Of a DNA stretch of 42,553 nucleotides, positions 13,677-40,356 are shown one piece after another. Position numbers and translations under genes: made by a program. Source of the stretch: Pirellulales bacterium (GTDB taxonomy: Bacteria > Planctomycetota > Planctomycetia > Pirellulales > JADZDJ01). The stretch lies in the NCBI GenBank assembly GCA_035656635.1, contig DASRSD010000055.1, forward strand, positions 1 through 42,553, given 5' to 3'. How positions within the stretch are numbered: position 1 is the first letter of the stretch; each line of letters starts with the position of its first letter. The notes under the pieces were generated by a model. The model searched no databases. It was not told the DNA's origin and saw only the letters and a program-made list of their open reading frames with translations.

Positions 13677-14927
13677 TTACCACATCGTCTCCAAAATCAA
13701 GGTTAATTCATCATCGGAAATCTCGCGCGGATTTCCCGCAAGGCTGTTACCGTGCGAGCCAGCTACCAAGGCGGGAATTTGCTCGCGGCGTACTTGCAAG
13801 TCTCGCAGGCGTGTGGGAATTCCTAATTCGGTAACCAGCGATTCCATGTGCTGAACGAACGCATAGACGGCAGCACTTTGATTTCCGAACGAACTTTCCT
13901 TCGTTGCATAAAGCCCAGCAGCTCGCGCCAGCGCGGCCAGTTCTTTCTCGGCCACGTCACGATTCGCCTTTAGTGCCACCGGCAGCATCACCGCACAAGC
14001 CAGGCCGTGCGATACATGGCACTCCGCGCCGAGTGCAGCCGCCAAGCCATGAGCCAAGCCCAGCCCGGAATTTGCCAACGCCATTCCGGAAAGTAGCGCC
14101 GCCTGCGACATCGCTTCGCGCGCCCAGCGGCAACTACCATTTCGTACGGCTTCTGGCAGGGCCGGCAGCGCCAGTTGAATGCCTTGCACGCACAAAGCGC
14201 GCGGCAACGGTTTGGCCCGCCGCGATATGTAACTTTCGATCAACTGCGTAATGGCGTCCATGCCGGTGTGCGCGGTGACTGTGGCCGGAGCGCTTGTAGT
14301 CAGCTCGGGGTCGATCAGCACAATCCTCGGCAGCATCAGGTCTGATCGCAGGCTCTTTTTGAACGGCGGGTTGTAGCTGCTGATGACGGCGTTCTTCGTC
14401 GCCTCGCTGCCTGTGCCCGCGGTGGTGGGCACGGCCAGCAAGGGCAGGGGCGGTTGAACAATTTTCAAACCGCGGCCAACGCCTTCCAAATAATCAGTAA
14501 CCGTCGTGCTGTCTCGATTGGTGGCTATGGCGGCGGCGGCTTTGGCTAAATCGATCGCCGAGCCGCCCCCCAGGCCAATCACAAAATCGCCCGCACTGGC
14601 ATGTTGTTCCACCAGTGCCGCGGTCAGCCGATCGACATCACCCACCTCCGGCTCGTGCGAAATCGAAGCCACGTGCAGCGGCTCCACGCCGGCGGCTTCT
14701 AGCAGCCGAAGCAGCTCGTCGAGCGTGCCGTTTTTCTCCAGCGTGCGGGAACCAGTCACCACAAACGCGCGGCGGCCCAAGCTAGCGGCCAGCGTTCCAA
14801 TTTCCCGCCGTCGCCCCCAGCCGAATACAATTCGCGGCGGTGCGAGAAAATCGTATTCCAGCGGCGGCAGCGGAAAGCCAATCGCCGGGCTTAAAGTCGG
14901 AGGAGTCGAATGATCGGCTGGGGGCAT
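13677..14927 (-). CDS. Iron-containing alcohol dehydrogenase
   Basis: A 416-residue group III (Fe-dependent) alcohol dehydrogenase, about the usual family length of 380-420. Visible signatures: the nucleotide-binding segment GDFVIGLGGGSAIDLAKA (about 113-130), VPTTAGTGSEATKNAVIS, the metal region TGMDAITQLIESY with its Asp, and LAHGLAAALGAECHVSHGLA with the metal-binding His residues. The family reduces aldehydes or oxidises alcohols with NAD(P); the substrate cannot be told from sequence. The frame stays open far upstream across the antisense of aroA, but homology begins after MPPADHSTPP, so I use the ATG at 14927. It is transcribed divergently from aroA with only 42 bases between starts, so both promoters overlap. 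Confidence 0.9.
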   Translation of the reverse strand: MPPADHSTPPTLSPAIGFPLPPLEYDFLAPPRIVFGWGRRREIGTLAASLGRRAFVVTGSRTLEKNGTLDELLRLLEAAGVEPLHVASISHEPEVGDVDRLTAALVEQHASAGDFVIGLGGGSAIDLAKAAAAIATNRDSTTVTDYLEGVGRGLKIVQPPLPLLAVPTTAGTGSEATKNAVISSYNPPFKKSLRSDLMLPRIVLIDPELTTSAPATVTAHTGMDAITQLIESYISRRAKPLPRALCVQGIQLALPALPEAVRNGSCRWAREAMSQAALLSGMALANSGLGLAHGLAAALGAECHVSHGLACAVMLPVALKANRDVAEKELAALARAAGLYATKESSFGNQSAAVYAFVQHMESLVTELGIPTRLRDLQVRREQIPALVAGSHGNSLAGNPREISDDELTLILETMW

Positions 14928-14969
14928 GCCGCCATTCTCGGTTCGTCCAGTGCAATCTACAATACGGCC

Positions 14970-16292
14970 ATGGTCGAGTCGCTGGAAATCACGCCCGCCG
15001 CAGGCCCCGTTCGGGGAAGCATTCGCCCGCCGGGCTCGAAAAGCATTACCAATCGGGCGCTCATCTGCGCCGCGCTGGCCGAAGGGGAATCGATACTTGC
15101 CGGCGCTCTGCCCAGTGAAGATACGCAAGTGATGATCGAATCGCTCCGCCGCCTTGGCATTGCCGTGAACGCCACCGACGGCGGCCAAACACCGCACCTG
15201 ACTGGCTGTGGCGGAAAAATTCCCGCGGCCGGGGCAGATTTGTACATCGCCAACAGCGGCACCAGCGTGCGATTTCTCACGGCGCTGTCGTCGCTGGGGC
15301 AGGGGCGTTTCCGGTTGGATGGAACCGCCCGCATGCGCGAGCGCCCCATTGCGGATTTGCTGGAAGGCTTGGCGCAACTGGGCGTGAATTTGAATAGCGA
15401 ACTGGGCAACGGCTGTCCGCCGGTCGTGGTGCACGCTGCAAGCTTGGCCGGCGGCCGAGCAAAAATTCGGGGCGATATTTCCAGCCAATTTCTCAGCGGC
15501 TTGCTGTTGGTCGCCCCGTATGCGCAACACGGGGTCGAGTTGAGCATCGAAGGGGAGCTGGTTTCGCAACCATACATACGGCTCACCTTGGCAGTGATGC
15601 GCTCCTTCGGCGTGGACGTACCCGGGGAAAATTTGCGGCAGTTCCACATCGTGCCGGGCAAATATCGCGGGCAGAATTATGCGATCGAGCCCGACGCCAG
15701 CGCGGCGAGTTATTTTTTTGCTGCCGCAGCCATCACCGGCGGCGAAGCAATCGTGCAGGGATTGTCGCAGCAAAGCTTGCAAGGGGACGTGGCTTTTGTG
15801 GAATGCTTGGAAAGGATGGGATGCAGCGTAAGGGAGCAGGAAGTAGGAAGTAGGGAACAGGGAGCAGGAGGAATCGTGATGACTGGGCCGGGGAAGGGAA
15901 AAAAACTGCACGGCATCAGCGTGAACATGAACGCCATTAGCGATACCGTGCAAACGCTGGCCGCGGTCGCGCTGTTTGCCGACGGGCCAACCACCATCAC
16001 CGGCGTGGCCCACATCCGGCATAAGGAAACCGATCGCATTGGAAATCTGGCCCTCGAGCTGCGCAAGTTCGGCGCCACCGTCGACGAATTGCCGGACGGG
16101 TTGCGGATTGCGCCGCCTGCTAAGCCGCAAGCGGCGCGCATCGCCACCTACAACGATCACCGCATGGCGATGAGCCTGGCCTTGGTCGGCCTGAAAGTTC
16201 CCGGCGTGGTGATTGAGAATCCTGGTTGCACGGGCAAAACTTACCCCGGGTTTTTTGATGACCTTGCGAAATTGGTGACAGGACGCGGCTAG
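14970..16292 (+). CDS. aroA: 3-phosphoshikimate 1-carboxyvinyltransferase (EPSP synthase)
   Basis: A 440-residue enzyme that joins phosphoenolpyruvate to shikimate-3-phosphate, the sixth step of the shikimate pathway in the cytoplasm. Signatures: IRPPGSKSITNRALICAALA near the N-terminus, LYIANSGTSVRFLTAL, DGTARMRERPI, DISSQFLSGLL, EPDASAASYFFAAAAI, HIRHKETDRIGNLALELRKF and TYNDHRMAMSLALVG. The start at 14970 (MVESLEITPAAGPVRGSI) matches the family N-terminus; an in-frame ATG at 14910 would add 20 unrelated residues. Around residues 289-302 there is an extra segment REQEVGSREQGAGG, encoded by a purine-rich repeat, in a place where the family normally has a short loop. All catalytic motifs are intact, so the insertion is probably tolerated. 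Confidence 0.95.
   Translation: MVESLEITPAAGPVRGSIRPPGSKSITNRALICAALAEGESILAGALPSEDTQVMIESLRRLGIAVNATDGGQTPHLTGCGGKIPAAGADLYIANSGTSVRFLTALSSLGQGRFRLDGTARMRERPIADLLEGLAQLGVNLNSELGNGCPPVVVHAASLAGGRAKIRGDISSQFLSGLLLVAPYAQHGVELSIEGELVSQPYIRLTLAVMRSFGVDVPGENLRQFHIVPGKYRGQNYAIEPDASAASYFFAAAAITGGEAIVQGLSQQSLQGDVAFVECLERMGCSVREQEVGSREQGAGGIVMTGPGKGKKLHGISVNMNAISDTVQTLAAVALFADGPTTITGVAHIRHKETDRIGNLALELRKFGATVDELPDGLRIAPPAKPQAARIATYNDHRMAMSLALVGLKVPGVVIENPGCTGKTYPGFFDDLAKLVTGRG
15834..15874 (+). repeat. Purine-rich repeat inserted in frame in aroA
   Basis: AGGGAGCAGGAAGTAGG and AGGGAACAGGGAGCAGGAGG are near-repeats of one unit. They encode REQEVGSREQGAGG and keep the frame. Confidence 0.6.
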
Positions 16293-16298
16293 GGAAGA

Positions 16299-16390
16299 AA
16301 TGTGGAATGGGGAGTGCGAATGAAATGTGGAATGGGGATTGGGGAATTGATAAAAAATGTGGAATGGGGATTGGGGAATGGAGAATGCGG
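16299..16390. repeat. Direct repeats after aroA
   Basis: Three copies, one partial, of a unit close to ATGTGGAATGGGGATTGGGG occur at about 16299, 16324 and 16357. They follow the aroA stop by seven bases. The remainder to 16600 has no gene. Confidence 0.7.
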
Positions 16391-16609
16391 AAACGTGAAG
16401 TTTTTTCGGGACGCGATATTTTTTCAGTGAATTCGTTTTTGTCCTGGATTTTTTATTTGCGGACAGAATGCGGACGTTTTGTCGCCATCGCAGCCTGGGC
16501 GAGGCAGGTTTTTCCCGTGCAAACTGAAATTGCCCACGACAAAAGTCGCGGAGTTTAAGTCCGGCTATGAGAGTTTTCGGCAATTTGTTCAGCGCGATTG
16601 ACATGGCGG

Positions 16610-16760
16610 ACCTAGTAGCAGGCGGCAGGCGGCGGGCAGTAGGCGGCGGGTAGCGGGCGGCATGCAGTAGGCGGTTGGCTGCCGGTTGCAGACCGCCTGC
16701 TGCCAGCGTCTAGTCTCTTGTTGGGAACCAGCAGGCTGTTTACCGCCTACTGCTAGTACG
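16610..16760. repeat. GGCAGTAGGCGG-rich element with inverted ends
   Basis: CTAGTAGCAGGCGG on the left matches the reverse complement of CCGCCTACTGCTAG on the right with two mismatches. Between them are several copies of GTAGGCGG/GCAGGCGG and one inverted CCGCCTGCTGCC. It is a palindromic repeat, not coding. From 16761 to 17059 I see nothing. Confidence 0.6.
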
Positions 16761-19524: not shown

Positions 19525-19623
19525 GATGGCGATAGCAAGCATCGATGTGCGATCGGGCCCGGCTACATCGTCATTTTACGCTTGGGGGTTGGCGAGGCCA
19601 GCACGGTGCTCTCACCCGACTGA

Positions 19624-19735
19624 CACAGTCGGGCTATGTAGAATTGCCGGCGGGCACAGTCGGGCTATGTAGAATTGCCGACGGGCACAATTGGGCTATG
19701 TAGAATTGCCCGACTGGCACAATCGGGTTATGTAA
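19624..19735. repeat. 31-base tandem repeat, about 3.6 copies
   Basis: Units start at 19624, 19655, 19686 and 19718 with CACAGTCGGGCTATGTAGAA or a variant. The junctions form small hairpins such as CCCGACTGGCACAATCGGG. There are no spacers between units, so it is not a CRISPR array. It ends about 30 bases after the stop of the ricin-fold gene on the minus strand. Confidence 0.85.
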
Positions 19736-19764: not shown

Positions 19765-20754
19765 CTACTGTTCGCCCACGAGAAGCCAGAGTTGGCTTTT
19801 GGCGCTATCGCTAGCGGCACGCTGCACCAGATTGCCATCATCGTCAACATCGAGCACCAGTCCGCTGGCTTTTGATTTTAAGCGCAGGGGCTTATCTTTC
19901 GACGAGGCGCCGCCGACCCAGATCCAGCGTTGGCTGTCGGCGTTTTCCGATTTGCTTTCCGCCACGCTGACGGGGTGATCTTCTTCTTTCGAGCCATCGG
20001 GCACATTTAACACCAGTCCGCTGGGACGGTGCGCGAAGGTGTAAACATCGTTTTCCTTGGCGAGCTTCCATTGCCGATCGTTAAAGTTTTTATCGCTGCT
20101 GCTTACCTTCTTTGCCAGCACGGCCCGGCCGCCGCTTGTGGCAGCATCCGATTCCAGCGCCAGCACCCAGCCGGTATTGGCGTTGACCAGCATGAAGTAT
20201 TGCGTGGGATGCACGCTCACAATTTTCCATAATTGGCTCTTGGCGTTTTCGTCGGGCTTGCGCTGCACGATGCTTCCCGAATCGTTGACATCCAACACCA
20301 GCTCGGTGAATTTCGATTGGATGCGCAGCGGCTTGGGATTTTCCAGATCGAACTTGCCCAACACCCAGCGTTGATTGTCGACCCCTTCCGTGGTATTGGC
20401 GGCGCTTTCCGCGGATTTTTCCGGCCACTGGATGATGGGGGTTTCCTCATCTTTGTGTGCGCCGAACACATCGAGCAGGTGTTCCGCGCTGTTGTTGCGA
20501 AGCTTGTAGCCGTGCTCGTCCTTTTCCAGCCGCCACTGGCGAATGGTGCTGTTGTTGTCTTCGGCCAAAGCGATGGGGGCGGCCTCTTCGCCGGAATCGC
20601 CTTGTGGGGCCAGCACTTTTCCCGTTTCCACGTTGATGATTTTGACTTCCACCGGCTCAGGCTGCTTTTCCGCAGCAGTTGCGTTGAGCTTTGCCGTAAC
20701 GCACCACGCCGCCCATAGCAGCCCACCAAATACAACCGACTTGGGCGAAAACAT
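19765..20754 (-). CDS. Secreted protein with ricin-type beta-trefoil repeats (paralogue 2)
   Basis: A 329-residue protein. The signal peptide is MFSPKSVVFGGLLWAAWCVT and following residues; AGGAGG six bases before the ATG at 20754 fixes this start over the longer frame from 20787. The mature part has about six repeats of the RICIN/Ricin_B-like type, with QxW motifs (RQWRLEKD, QRWVLGKF, SQLWKIVS, RQWKLAKE, QRWIWVGG, SQLWLLVG) and SGLVLDVDDDGNLVQR strands: two beta-trefoils. Ricin-fold domains usually bind carbohydrate; no enzyme domain is present. It is 64 bases downstream of its paralogue (20819-21796), clearly a tandem duplication that has diverged. Extracellular or cell-surface sugar binding is an inference. 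Confidence 0.85.
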   Translation of the reverse strand: MFSPKSVVFGGLLWAAWCVTAKLNATAAEKQPEPVEVKIINVETGKVLAPQGDSGEEAAPIALAEDNNSTIRQWRLEKDEHGYKLRNNSAEHLLDVFGAHKDEETPIIQWPEKSAESAANTTEGVDNQRWVLGKFDLENPKPLRIQSKFTELVLDVNDSGSIVQRKPDENAKSQLWKIVSVHPTQYFMLVNANTGWVLALESDAATSGGRAVLAKKVSSSDKNFNDRQWKLAKENDVYTFAHRPSGLVLNVPDGSKEEDHPVSVAESKSENADSQRWIWVGGASSKDKPLRLKSKASGLVLDVDDDGNLVQRAASDSAKSQLWLLVGEQ

Positions 20755-20818
20755 GCTCGCCTCCTGTAATTCGAAGCACAATTTCAAAAGTAGTGCCGGC
20801 AGCCCGTGCGGAGCGCTG

Positions 20819-21796
20819 CTATTCCTTCACTTCCACCATCAACCACATTTGGCCCTTAGATTTTTCGCTGGGGCTGCGCTGAACGATGTTGCCTTCGTCA
20901 TCTACGTCGAGCACCAGTCCGCTTGATTTCGATTTCAACCGCCGGGGCTTGTCGGCCGTGGCGGGGCCCCCTTCCCAGCTCCAGCGTTGGTTATCGTTGC
21001 CATCGGCGGCAGATTTATCGTCGTACAGAATGATGGCCCCGTCTTCGTCGCTGGAATCGCCCGAAACGTCCAGCACCAAGCCGGTGGGCCGCTGCACAAT
21101 TTTGTAGAAGCTGCCGTCCTTTTCCAATTTCCATTGATGTTCTTTGTTCGGTTTGTCTTTGCTGTCGGCGTCTTTGGCCACCACCGCCCGGGCGCCGGAG
21201 TAGCCGGAATCTGATTCTGGCGCAAGCACCCAGTGCGAGTTGGCGTTGACCAACTTCACATACGCGGGGGCTAGCACATAGACGATGCGCCACAGCTGGC
21301 TTTTGGCGGTATTGCTGGCGCCTTGCTGGACAATTTTTCCCGCGTCGTCGACATCCAGCACCAGCCCGCTCGATTTAGAATTAATGCGCACGCCCTTATC
21401 GCTGGCCTGATTGGCTTGTTCCCAGGACCATTGCTGATTGTCGTTTTGATCTCCGGCTCCTTTAGCATCCCACAGAATGATGCTGGCGCCGGCATCGGTA
21501 GACCAACCATTCACATCCAGCGCCAGGCCGTTGGCGCGATTCACCAATTGGTAGAAATCGCCATTTTTTTCCAGCTTCCATTGCTGCGCGTGGCTGCCTT
21601 TGGCTTCGGCGGCAATGACCGCTTGGTCGCTGGCGGCGTCGCTCTCGTGTTCCAAGGCGAGAAGTTTGCCGGTCGCTACGTTGATAATTTTCACGTAGCC
21701 GGCATCGTCGGGTTTGCTGTCGGCAGCATATGTTTGGGCAGCGGATAGCAATAGGACAGCACCCATCGCGACGAGGGCCATTTGAAACCGCGACAT
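20819..21796 (-). CDS. Secreted protein with ricin-type beta-trefoil repeats (paralogue 1)
   Basis: A 325-residue paralogue of the next gene. Signal peptide MSRFQMALVAMGAVLLLSAA with a likely cut after TYA. Two beta-trefoils follow, with QxW motifs (QQWKLEKN, QQWSWEQA, SQLWRIVY, HQWKLEKD, QRWSWEGG, GQMWLMVE) and LVLDV segments. GGGAGATG upstream of the ATG supports the start. The repeats are better preserved here than in the downstream copy. The 21797-22006 gap upstream has no gene and presumably holds the promoter for both. Sugar binding is a family-based guess. Confidence 0.85.
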   Translation of the reverse strand: MSRFQMALVAMGAVLLLSAAQTYAADSKPDDAGYVKIINVATGKLLALEHESDAASDQAVIAAEAKGSHAQQWKLEKNGDFYQLVNRANGLALDVNGWSTDAGASIILWDAKGAGDQNDNQQWSWEQANQASDKGVRINSKSSGLVLDVDDAGKIVQQGASNTAKSQLWRIVYVLAPAYVKLVNANSHWVLAPESDSGYSGARAVVAKDADSKDKPNKEHQWKLEKDGSFYKIVQRPTGLVLDVSGDSSDEDGAIILYDDKSAADGNDNQRWSWEGGPATADKPRRLKSKSSGLVLDVDDEGNIVQRSPSEKSKGQMWLMVEVKE

Positions 21797-38573: not shown

Positions 38574-38810
38574 CCACGGAGACGCTGAGACATAGAGAAG
38601 GCAGTGAAGAAATTTATAACAGGCTGTTTCAAAACTAGGAATCGGGTGGCTGGGGGCTCCCTTCGGTCGACCCCAGCAGCCTATTCACTGGGGGCTCGGC
38701 GGCACTCGACCCCAGCCACCCTTGAAGGAAGTCCAGTTTTGAAACAGCCTCTTATAAGACCTCTTCTGTTTTGTTCCTCTCTGCGTCTTCGTGCCTCTGC
38801 GGTTCATAAC
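38572..38810. repeat. Long palindromic repeat (outer), copy 1
   Basis: AACCACGGAGACGCTGAGAC at 38572 pairs with CTCTGCGTCTTCGTGCCTCT and GCGGTT near 38779-38808. The arms are interrupted at TTATAA by an inserted smaller palindrome (38618-38751). The same outer repeat occurs at 40168. Confidence 0.75.
38621..38750. mobile_element. MITE-like palindromic element nested in the outer repeat
   Basis: AGGCTGTTTCAAAACT (38621-38636) is the perfect reverse complement of AGTTTTGAAACAGCCT (38735-38750). Inside, GGTGGCTGGGG and CCCCAGCCACC form a second stem, and two GGGG-CTC loops form small hairpins. TTATAA occurs on both sides, one base from each arm, as a possible target duplication. About 130 bases and no ORF: a non-autonomous element by structure. 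Confidence 0.7.
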
Positions 38811-38817
38811 CGATCCG

Positions 38818-39309: not shown

Positions 39310-40163
39310 CCGATTTTTTGCAACTCGCGGGCAAAACCGTGTTAGTGATGGGCGTGGCCAATCGCAAAAGCGTGGCCTGGCACGTGGGACGGGTGTTGTC
39401 CGAAGTCGGTGCCGACGTCGTCTACTCGGTCCGCACCGAAGCTCGGCGGGACAGTGTGCAAAAAATAGTGGACGCTGCTCCAGTGTTGGTATGCGACGTG
39501 GAGCACGAAGCCCAAATTGCCCGGCTGCGAAATCAGTTGGCCGAAATTCGGCCGCAACTGCATGGATTGTGCCACTCCATTGCTTTCGCAGATTACGGCA
39601 GTGCGGAAGCGGCAAATTCCATCACCCCGTCCTCTCCCGTCAGGGGAGAGGGAGTTGCCGGAAGGCCATTTCACGAAACGTCGAAAGATGCGTTTTTACG
39701 GGCGGTCGATATTTCTTGCTTCTCGCTGATTGCGGTGTCCAATGCATTGCGGGAGCTATTCGACCCGGATGCGTCGGTGGTGAGCGTGTCGATTTCGACC
39801 ACGCGCATGGCCGCGGAAAATTACGGCTTCATGGCGCCCGTGAAGGCGGCGCTCGATTCGTCCTTGGCGTTCTTGGCTAAATCGTTCAGCGGCTTTTCCC
39901 GAGTGCGCTTCAATGCCGTTGCGCCGGGATTGTTGAAAACCTCGGCCTCAGCCGGTATTCCTGGCTACGTCGATGCGTATCTCTATGCCGAGCAGGCCAC
40001 ACTGCGCAAACAGGCGGTGCAGACTGAGGAAGTGGCCAATGCAGCAGCGTTTTTGCTAAGCCCGCGCTCCAGCGGCATCAACGCGCAGCAAATGGTGATC
40101 GATGCCGGCATGAGCGTGAATTATTTTGACCGCGAACTGATCCGCCGTGCCCTGCGGGACTGA
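39306..40163 (+). CDS. FabI-like enoyl-ACP reductase (short-chain dehydrogenase fold)
   Basis: A 285-residue SDR protein of the FabI type. The nucleotide segment [20 protein letters not shown] is FabI-like (GxxNxxSxA). The active-site Tyr173-x6-Lys180 in [15 protein letters not shown] matches FabI Tyr156/Lys163. The second FabI Tyr (E. coli Tyr146) aligns with Ile163, so the enzyme may differ in mechanism or substrate, or be a divergent FabI. FabI reduces trans-2-enoyl-ACP with NAD(P)H, the last step of each elongation. It is translationally coupled to fabZ by an ATGA overlap. Residues about 104-121 ([16 protein letters not shown]) are an extra loop encoded by a hairpin repeat related to the one in desaturase 1. 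It ends before the palindromic repeat at 40168. Confidence 0.82.
39615..39669 (+). repeat. REP-like hairpin repeat inserted in frame in the FabI-like gene
   Basis: CCTCTCCC (39631-39638) and GGGAGAGG (39644-39651) form the stem, the same CTCTCCC/GGGAGAG family as at 36342. It encodes SPVRGEGV in frame. Confidence 0.7.
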
Positions 40164-40167
40164 TTTG

Positions 40168-40356
40168 AACCGCAGAGACACGGAGATACAGAGAAAGAAC
40201 GAAAAAATTTATAAGGATGTCAGGAAACAAGGAATGATCATTAGAATAAACGATTGAGAATCAACTTCGCCTTGGATATTTCCTGGATTCCTGGATTCCT
40301 TATTAAAAATCTGCCCGCATCAATCTTCTCAGTGTCTTTGCGTTTCCGCGATTCAC
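40168..40356. repeat. Long palindromic repeat (outer), copy 2
   Basis: AACCGCAGAGACACGGAGAT (40168) pairs with TCTCAGTGTCTTTGCGTTTC near 40327-40346. The interior has AATTTATAAGGATGTCAGGA against TCCTGGATTCCTTATTAAAA. The left arm and its AAATTTATAA match the outer repeat at 38572, without the nested element. It fills the gap between the convergent FabI-like and Uma2 genes. Confidence 0.7.

Follow-up and report, generated by a model that had tools for sequence, protein, structure and literature searches.

A degenerate heptanucleotide array read in frame within a predicted loop of AroA from a Pirellulales bacterium

The aroA gene of this Pirellulales bacterium contains a short DNA repeat in the middle of its coding sequence, which raises the question of what kind of repeat it is, how it came to be read in frame within a housekeeping enzyme, and whether the enzyme gains anything from the encoded peptide. 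The gene lies in a stretch of 42,553 nt that was analyzed as a whole (the window). A first-pass annotation had described the in-frame repeat as two 21-nt near-copies. Both near-copies are real, and the features identified in and around them are compiled in Table 1.

Table 1. Features at the aroA locus of the window
Feature	Position	Strand	Evidence
aroA, EPSP synthase (3-phosphoshikimate 1-carboxyvinyltransferase), host gene	14970..16292	+	PF00275, TIGR01356, PDB matches
Heptamer array, 14 codons REQEVGSREQGAGG, AroA residues 288-301 (from ATG 14970)	15831..15872	+	sequence and period-7 score
Unit 1, GGAGCAG	15833..15839	+	read from sequence
Unit 2, GAAGTAG	15840..15846	+	read from sequence
Unit 3, GAAGTAG	15847..15853	+	read from sequence
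Unit 4, GGAACAG	15854..15860	+	read from sequence
Unit 5, GGAGCAG	15861..15867	+	read from sequence
Heptamer array of the same class, AATGGGG/ATTGGGG type, just 3′ of the aroA stop codon	16299..16392	+	direct-repeat listing and period-7 scan
Heptamer array, GGCGGCA/GGCAGTA type, inverted partner arm	16618..16753	.	inverted-repeat listing, Tandem Repeats Finder, period-7 scan

The heptamer array in aroA

The product of the host gene matched PF00275 (E = 7.7e-118) and, over residues 16-436, TIGR01356 (424.8 bits, cut-off 287.25, E = 3.3e-127), which identifies it as an EPSP synthase; the start codon was chosen because homologs align from there. The repeat begins 3 nt before the position initially assigned to it, and its period is 7 nt (score 19) instead of 21 nt, the latter corresponding to three heptamers or seven codons. 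None of 3000 codon-order shuffles of aroA (maximum score 13) and none of 3000 protein-preserving synonymous shuffles (maximum 18) reached the observed score. Among the three forward frames of the array, the one used is the only one free of stops: the TAG of both GAAGTAG units is out of frame, and units arriving in the critical phase read CAG. Only one pair of adjacent units is identical. The imperfect array escaped Tandem Repeats Finder when the default threshold was applied, and it was also missing from the direct-repeat listing for the window, which showed 20 of 27 families. With a period of 7 nt, more than two units, a score above chance and recurrence in the genome, it is a heptanucleotide tandem repeat in the general sense. 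On the minus strand, an open frame of 975 aa (13677-16604) runs antisense to all of aroA including the array and reaches an apparent downstream dehydrogenase gene; probably its last part alone is a gene, for which the dehydrogenase name is putative.

Modeling of the loop, as suggested in the first-pass annotation, yielded an AlphaFold model (34 sequences, mean pLDDT 94.8) with predicted strands at residues 286-291 and 300-305 and the array residues between them, at the tip of a β-hairpin. The block 291-300 had a pLDDT of 62, that of every other block being at least 85. Taken together, the model and the alignment of relatives agree with the earlier view of a loop beside conserved motifs, in that the array is predicted to form a loop adjoining conserved strands.

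The same annotation had counted aroA as a third case of a repeat kept in frame in the window, which does not apply to the 31-nt and 164-nt repeats examined. No ORF of at least 150 aa overlaps the tandem 31-nt array (19616-19734; 3.8 copies), which flanks a minus-strand lectin ORF on the 3′ side. The 164-nt family resides in two adjacent minus-strand ORFs (19765-20787 and 20819-21796) whose ricin-type beta-trefoil lectin domains (PF14200, PF00652) are themselves repeated, as is to be expected of such proteins. Elsewhere in the window, a MITE-like element (38614-38757) has 23-nt inverted ends (TTATAACAGGCTGTTTCAAAACT / AGTTTTGAAACAGCCTCTTATAA) separated by 98 nt, and two inverted 40-nt arms (TCTCTGCGTCTTCGTGCCTCTGCGGTTCATAACCG...; 38778-38817 and 40155-40194), 78% complementary, are 1337 nt apart.

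Period-7 arrays in this genome and its sister

A scan of 660 kb of this genome (41 stretches including the window, 0.7% masked, score at least 14) revealed 37 period-7 arrays, whereas each other period from 2 to 13 gave at most 6 and one Markov-simulated copy gave no period-7 array. Periods 14, 15, and 21 gave 25, 15, and 24 arrays, respectively; the first and third of these are multiples of 7, and protein repeats may contribute to the second and third. In the same-genus sister G001, 50 period-7 arrays were found in 1.10 Mb (80 stretches). The arrays do not form a single purine-rich family: the 37 of this genome have 26 distinct consensus units that vary by site (GGCAGAA, GGGGAAT, GGTCATT, GGTGTCT, GGTCAGT, GCGATTA, and others). 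The array at L129 19886-19926 consists of GGGATTA/GGGGTTA-like units, which we take to resemble plant-type telomere repeats.

At a score of at least 11 (142 arrays), same-family arrays up to 250 nt apart formed 11 inverted and 0 direct pairs, the absence of the latter being subject to the scan, which may have merged close direct neighbors into one array. The inverted pairs comprise 22 of the 142 arrays; the aroA array itself is single. A pattern search allowing up to 3 mismatches gave only one other near-copy of the latter (C107:33844-33866, 2 mismatches in 23), and its assignment to one transposed family was dismissed. A similar array is located at L121 4718-4757, before the likely start of an opposite-strand gene. 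The unit differences within the aroA arrays of both sisters are transitions without exception. Wobble copying, for which a transition bias is expected, was rejected: calculated over all arrays, Ts/Tv values were ~1.2 in this genome and 0.8-1.0 in the sister versus 1.04 between orthologs.

Tested against shuffles that preserve base composition only, 19 of the 37 units of this genome recurred in the sister (shuffle mean 2.1, maximum 7) and 9 of 37 in Chloroflexota (mean 1.1, maximum 5); 7 of the 50 sister units recurred in Chloroflexota, equal to the shuffle maximum of 7. The motif fit, evaluated with shuffles of the same limited kind, exceeded 100 of 100 shuffles for the planctomycete genus (4.71 versus a null maximum of 4.42) and, narrowly, for Chloroflexota (4.52 versus 4.49); an earlier fit with fewer null starts had given 4.77 versus 4.35 and 4.47 versus 4.50, respectively. 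These sequence comparisons provide a hint of a unit “grammar” that this genome, its sister, and Chloroflexota may have in common.

AroA of G001 shares 79% identity with AroA of this genome. At the same codons, the sister gene reads GTCAGTG GTCAGTG GTCGGTG GCCAGTG GTCAG, encoding SGQWSVASGQ, and both flanks align well. The surrounding region (region 3 below) comprises 43 and 41 aa in the sisters versus 31 aa in seven other planctomycetes compared, including the same-family G002 (L007), and none of the 17 further AroA of the order that were read correctly has the 8 extra residues. Thus, the longer loop is a feature of this genus, with a unit that differs between its members. According to the first-pass annotation, the same loop with unrelated DNA in sister species would refute its interpretation; taken literally this applies, the sister having the longer loop with a different unit, but not in substance, since that unit again forms a heptamer array.

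Beyond aroA, 6 of 38 arrays of this genome (score at least 13) could be mapped to the sister, of which 5 were usable after L168 had been discarded for matching paralogs; reverse mapping placed 10 of 58 sister arrays in this genome. A fatty acid desaturase (L158/L211) has different heptamer units in its N-terminal linker in the two sisters, the array here being short and below the threshold, and at the end of an intergenic region (L163/L198) the site is kept with differing units. The unit is unchanged at L123/L200 and at L156/L180. The sister lacks a counterpart of the array at 16618 in the corresponding position and has a different array nearer to the aroA stop codon; the sister arrays L147 10322, L197 8634, and L197 15351 are without counterpart here. 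The array at L197 8634, considered as a coding insertion, turned out to be C-terminal tail plus spacer. Because two of the compared sites keep their unit, three are without counterpart, and few arrays are comparable, the swap of units is not a rule.

Arrays in AroA across phyla and in other genes

The AroA survey comprised 98 loci (array score at least 12), not all from distinct species since some probably represent one genome twice (e.g. L023 and L036); 11 wrong-strand rows (of 30), the partial L074, and the duplicate L003 had been left out. Arrays within AroA were present at 2 of 53 planctomycete loci (both of this genus), 14 of 18 Chloroflexota loci, and 0 of 27 others, the phylum labels being approximate in that a few of the others may be planctomycetes. 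All 30 arrays fell into four regions: ~141-149 (region 1, 10 arrays), 222-238 (region 2, 9), 288-314 (region 3, 9), and 382-390 (2). Region 3 includes the loop of the aroA array described here; 7 of its 9 arrays are from Chloroflexota, with TGGTCAC-like (L080, L089, L103), CCGTCCA-like (L073, L085, L097), or CTCATCA-like (L065) units. At the 30 arrays, of which the 28 from Chloroflexota are non-independent owing to common AroA ancestry (L097 carries a stop), mean helix content was 0.00 versus 0.36 at random placement and mean coil content 0.73 versus 0.38; column conservation was 0.27 versus 0.61, insertion columns being partly unconserved by construction. In a model of the Chloroflexota AroA at L089, pLDDT values below 50 were confined to residues 144-146 and 241-248, within the first two array-encoded stretches, and the third array stretch comprised well-predicted strands.

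The length of the array-bearing regions differed. All 10 array-bearing Chloroflexota were longer in region 1 (24-35 aa versus 15-19 aa in the planctomycetes and others compared), 3 of 9 array-bearing sequences were longer in region 2 (37, 41, and 48 aa versus 27-31 aa; the other six had 30-31 aa), and in region 3 all 7 array-bearing Chloroflexota had 32 aa, equal to array-free ones. Since array-bearing regions are often unlengthened, many arrays replaced existing sequence instead of extending it; region 3 grew in this genus. Two further Chloroflexota AroA (L078 2412-3713 and L082 4001-5284) have repeat-like peptides in region 1 (LSQRERAEGEGE and LAQRERDGVRE) where their neighbors have heptamer arrays, as if, judged from sequence, this loop may accept repeats of other kinds, too.

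Across 80 named aroA loci, 71 period-7 arrays were counted in 146 kb of Chloroflexota (16 of 18 loci), 13 in 285 kb of planctomycetes (11 of 35 loci), and none in 220 kb of Fibrobacter, Shewanella, and others (27 loci). Four other genomes of the order had 0, 1, 1, and 0 arrays in 80, 40, 40, and 40 kb, respectively, and the same-family G002 had 5 in 164 kb.

Outside aroA, 17 of the 37 arrays here and 20 of the 50 in the sister fall within ORFs of 120 aa or more, often antisense or at the ORF end; most of these seemingly coding arrays were set aside as located at ORF ends, antisense, or in unmatched ORFs. A Pfam match with E ≤0.001 was obtained for 15 of 18 array-bearing ORFs scanned, that of L125 10994-12469 being below the curated cut-off. 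Two proteins have tails encoded by arrays, one being lumazine-binding (riboflavin-synthase-like) and the other cytidylate kinase; further arrays are located N-terminal to RuvC, MutM, IlvD-type, pilin-like, and other domains. Apart from AroA, the clearly internal array is that of a SUMT-HemD fusion, at residues 83-94 inside the methyltransferase domain, where a solved relative has a gap. Judged by match length, the relatives in G002, G003, G006, and G017 are a net 33, 35, 38, and 37 residues shorter, and the one in G001 is a net 13 residues longer, values that refer to the match as a whole and not to the array position. In the sister, the array at L229 3166-3204 supplies the hydrophobic portion of a lipoprotein-like signal peptide (LLPCAFCLLLSLAGC), which is followed by an LptE-like domain.

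Known heptamers, alternatives, and a likely origin

G-rich heptamers of Xanthomonas (GGGAATC) and Nostoc (GGGGA(C/T)T) are genome-dispersed tandem units found mostly outside genes; inverted pairs are reported for Xanthomonas, and many sites are kept between related species with differing lengths (PMC4692102). The genomes studied here resemble them in having dispersed tandem 7-nt units and frequent inverted pairs, but they contain many units each instead of one unit family with a preference for four G-tracts, and the aroA array is found midway through a conserved enzyme, with different units at one site in the sisters. Its units GGAGCAG, GAAGTAG, and GGAACAG do not fit GGGNATC or GGGGA(C/T)T; the AATGGGG array 3′ of aroA is closer. 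For the TAACTGA repeats of Beggiatoaceae, Cyanobacteria, and Bacteroidetes, PMC4679880 describes a few cases in frame within ORFs, some with assigned function; most in-ORF repeats are terminal in the protein or avoid regions whose function is known. Heptameric direct repeats and in-frame reading are common to both, whereas TAACTGA is one fixed unit and the aroA array has other units in an internal domain loop. The aroA array does not match the TAACTGA unit. Heptanucleotide repeats of cyanobacteria are named STRR. Those of, for example, Calothrix are tandem with more than one unit per genome (PMC4692102) and can be likened to the class of the aroA array by description, not by sequence. The aroA array is outside every named heptamer unit family, and no report of heptamer arrays in AroA or planctomycetes was recognized among the hits listed in searches of open-licence papers.

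We consider it likely that the aroA array is a degenerate heptanucleotide array of the genome-wide class, probably generated by 7-nt slippage and tolerated in a permissive in-frame loop. It is unlikely that a mobile, copied element of the MITE or Rickettsia palindromic type was inserted in frame. The near-copy at C107, the similar array at L121, the exclusively inverted orientation of neighboring same-family arrays, and a sister array pair opposite a short spacer of this genome (L147/L154) would suit such an element; the aroA array, however, has neither fixed ends nor a palindrome, the genome contains 26 units in place of one, and the sister array at this site is built from a different unit. 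Rickettsia palindromic elements, of ~150 bp, insert a conserved peptide in frame into unrelated metabolic genes and are apparently tolerated (PMC10969869, a review). On this description, an apparently tolerated in-frame repeat in a metabolic gene is common to both, but the aroA case is a 42-nt heptamer array without a fixed peptide, the sister peptide differing, and no inverted repeat was listed at the array.

Selection of the added peptide for an effect on AroA stability, interaction, or regulation appears quite improbable. The longer loop was kept in both sisters, yet their peptides (REQEVGSREQGAGG and SGQWSVASGQEN) are dissimilar, the AroA model has its lowest confidence in this loop, and arrays are common outside genes and at gene ends as well. 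That gain or loss of one unit switches aroA off by a frameshift, as in phase variation, is very unlikely: 7 nt is not a multiple of three, so any change in unit number would shift the frame, but phase-variable simple sequence repeats have near-perfect units, and the one identical adjacent pair found here would make slippage rare; moreover, aroA is a biosynthetic housekeeping gene and in frame in both sisters. A control element forming a G-quadruplex, as proposed for the heptamers of Xanthomonas and Nostoc, has hardly any likelihood. The GG runs, spaced 4-5 nt apart, fit a weak two-tetrad pattern, which was present in 42 of 87 arrays of both genomes; four GGG runs were found in 7 of these 87 and not in the aroA array, which is moreover located mid-gene.

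As to the origin by 7-nt slippage, this step is one that we infer, because no mutational event was seen. Arrays would arise locally by slippage or by slip-and-return copying, which could also overwrite sequence without changing its length, and many would survive in spacers and at gene ends. Coding arrays would be kept only if they alter the length by a net multiple of three, bring no stop into the frame, and lie in a tolerant loop; later, a site may keep its array while the unit sequence turns over. AroA would provide tolerant segments of this kind in two phyla. The unlengthened Chloroflexota arrays in regions 2 and 3 argue against simple insertion, which does not predict them. Local 7-nt copying most likely explains the frame, the loop, the difference between the sisters, and the absence from outgroups; it explains neither the step of seven nor the apparent likeness of the units to those of Chloroflexota. 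Most likely, the loop serves the enzyme nothing useful.

A more far-reaching proposal, which we regard as rather doubtful, is a dedicated 7-nt copying process that operates in some planctomycetes, is rampant in Anaerolineae, uses a restricted set of units, and overwrites spacers and permissive loops of essential enzymes, making it a general source of protein loops and termini. It would account for one AroA loop with differing heptamer arrays in two phyla and also between sister species. If true, it would constitute an unrecognized way for essential proteins to acquire loops and tails and pose a testable question of replication or repair. Several bacteria have an excess of heptameric repeats, whose origin is left unsettled in the papers compared. 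A conserved enzyme makes such arrays measurable: outgroups present the empty loop, sisters another unit, and the frame records the events that survived. The loop of AroA seems to be a place where heptamer repeats of a widespread class can land and be tolerated.
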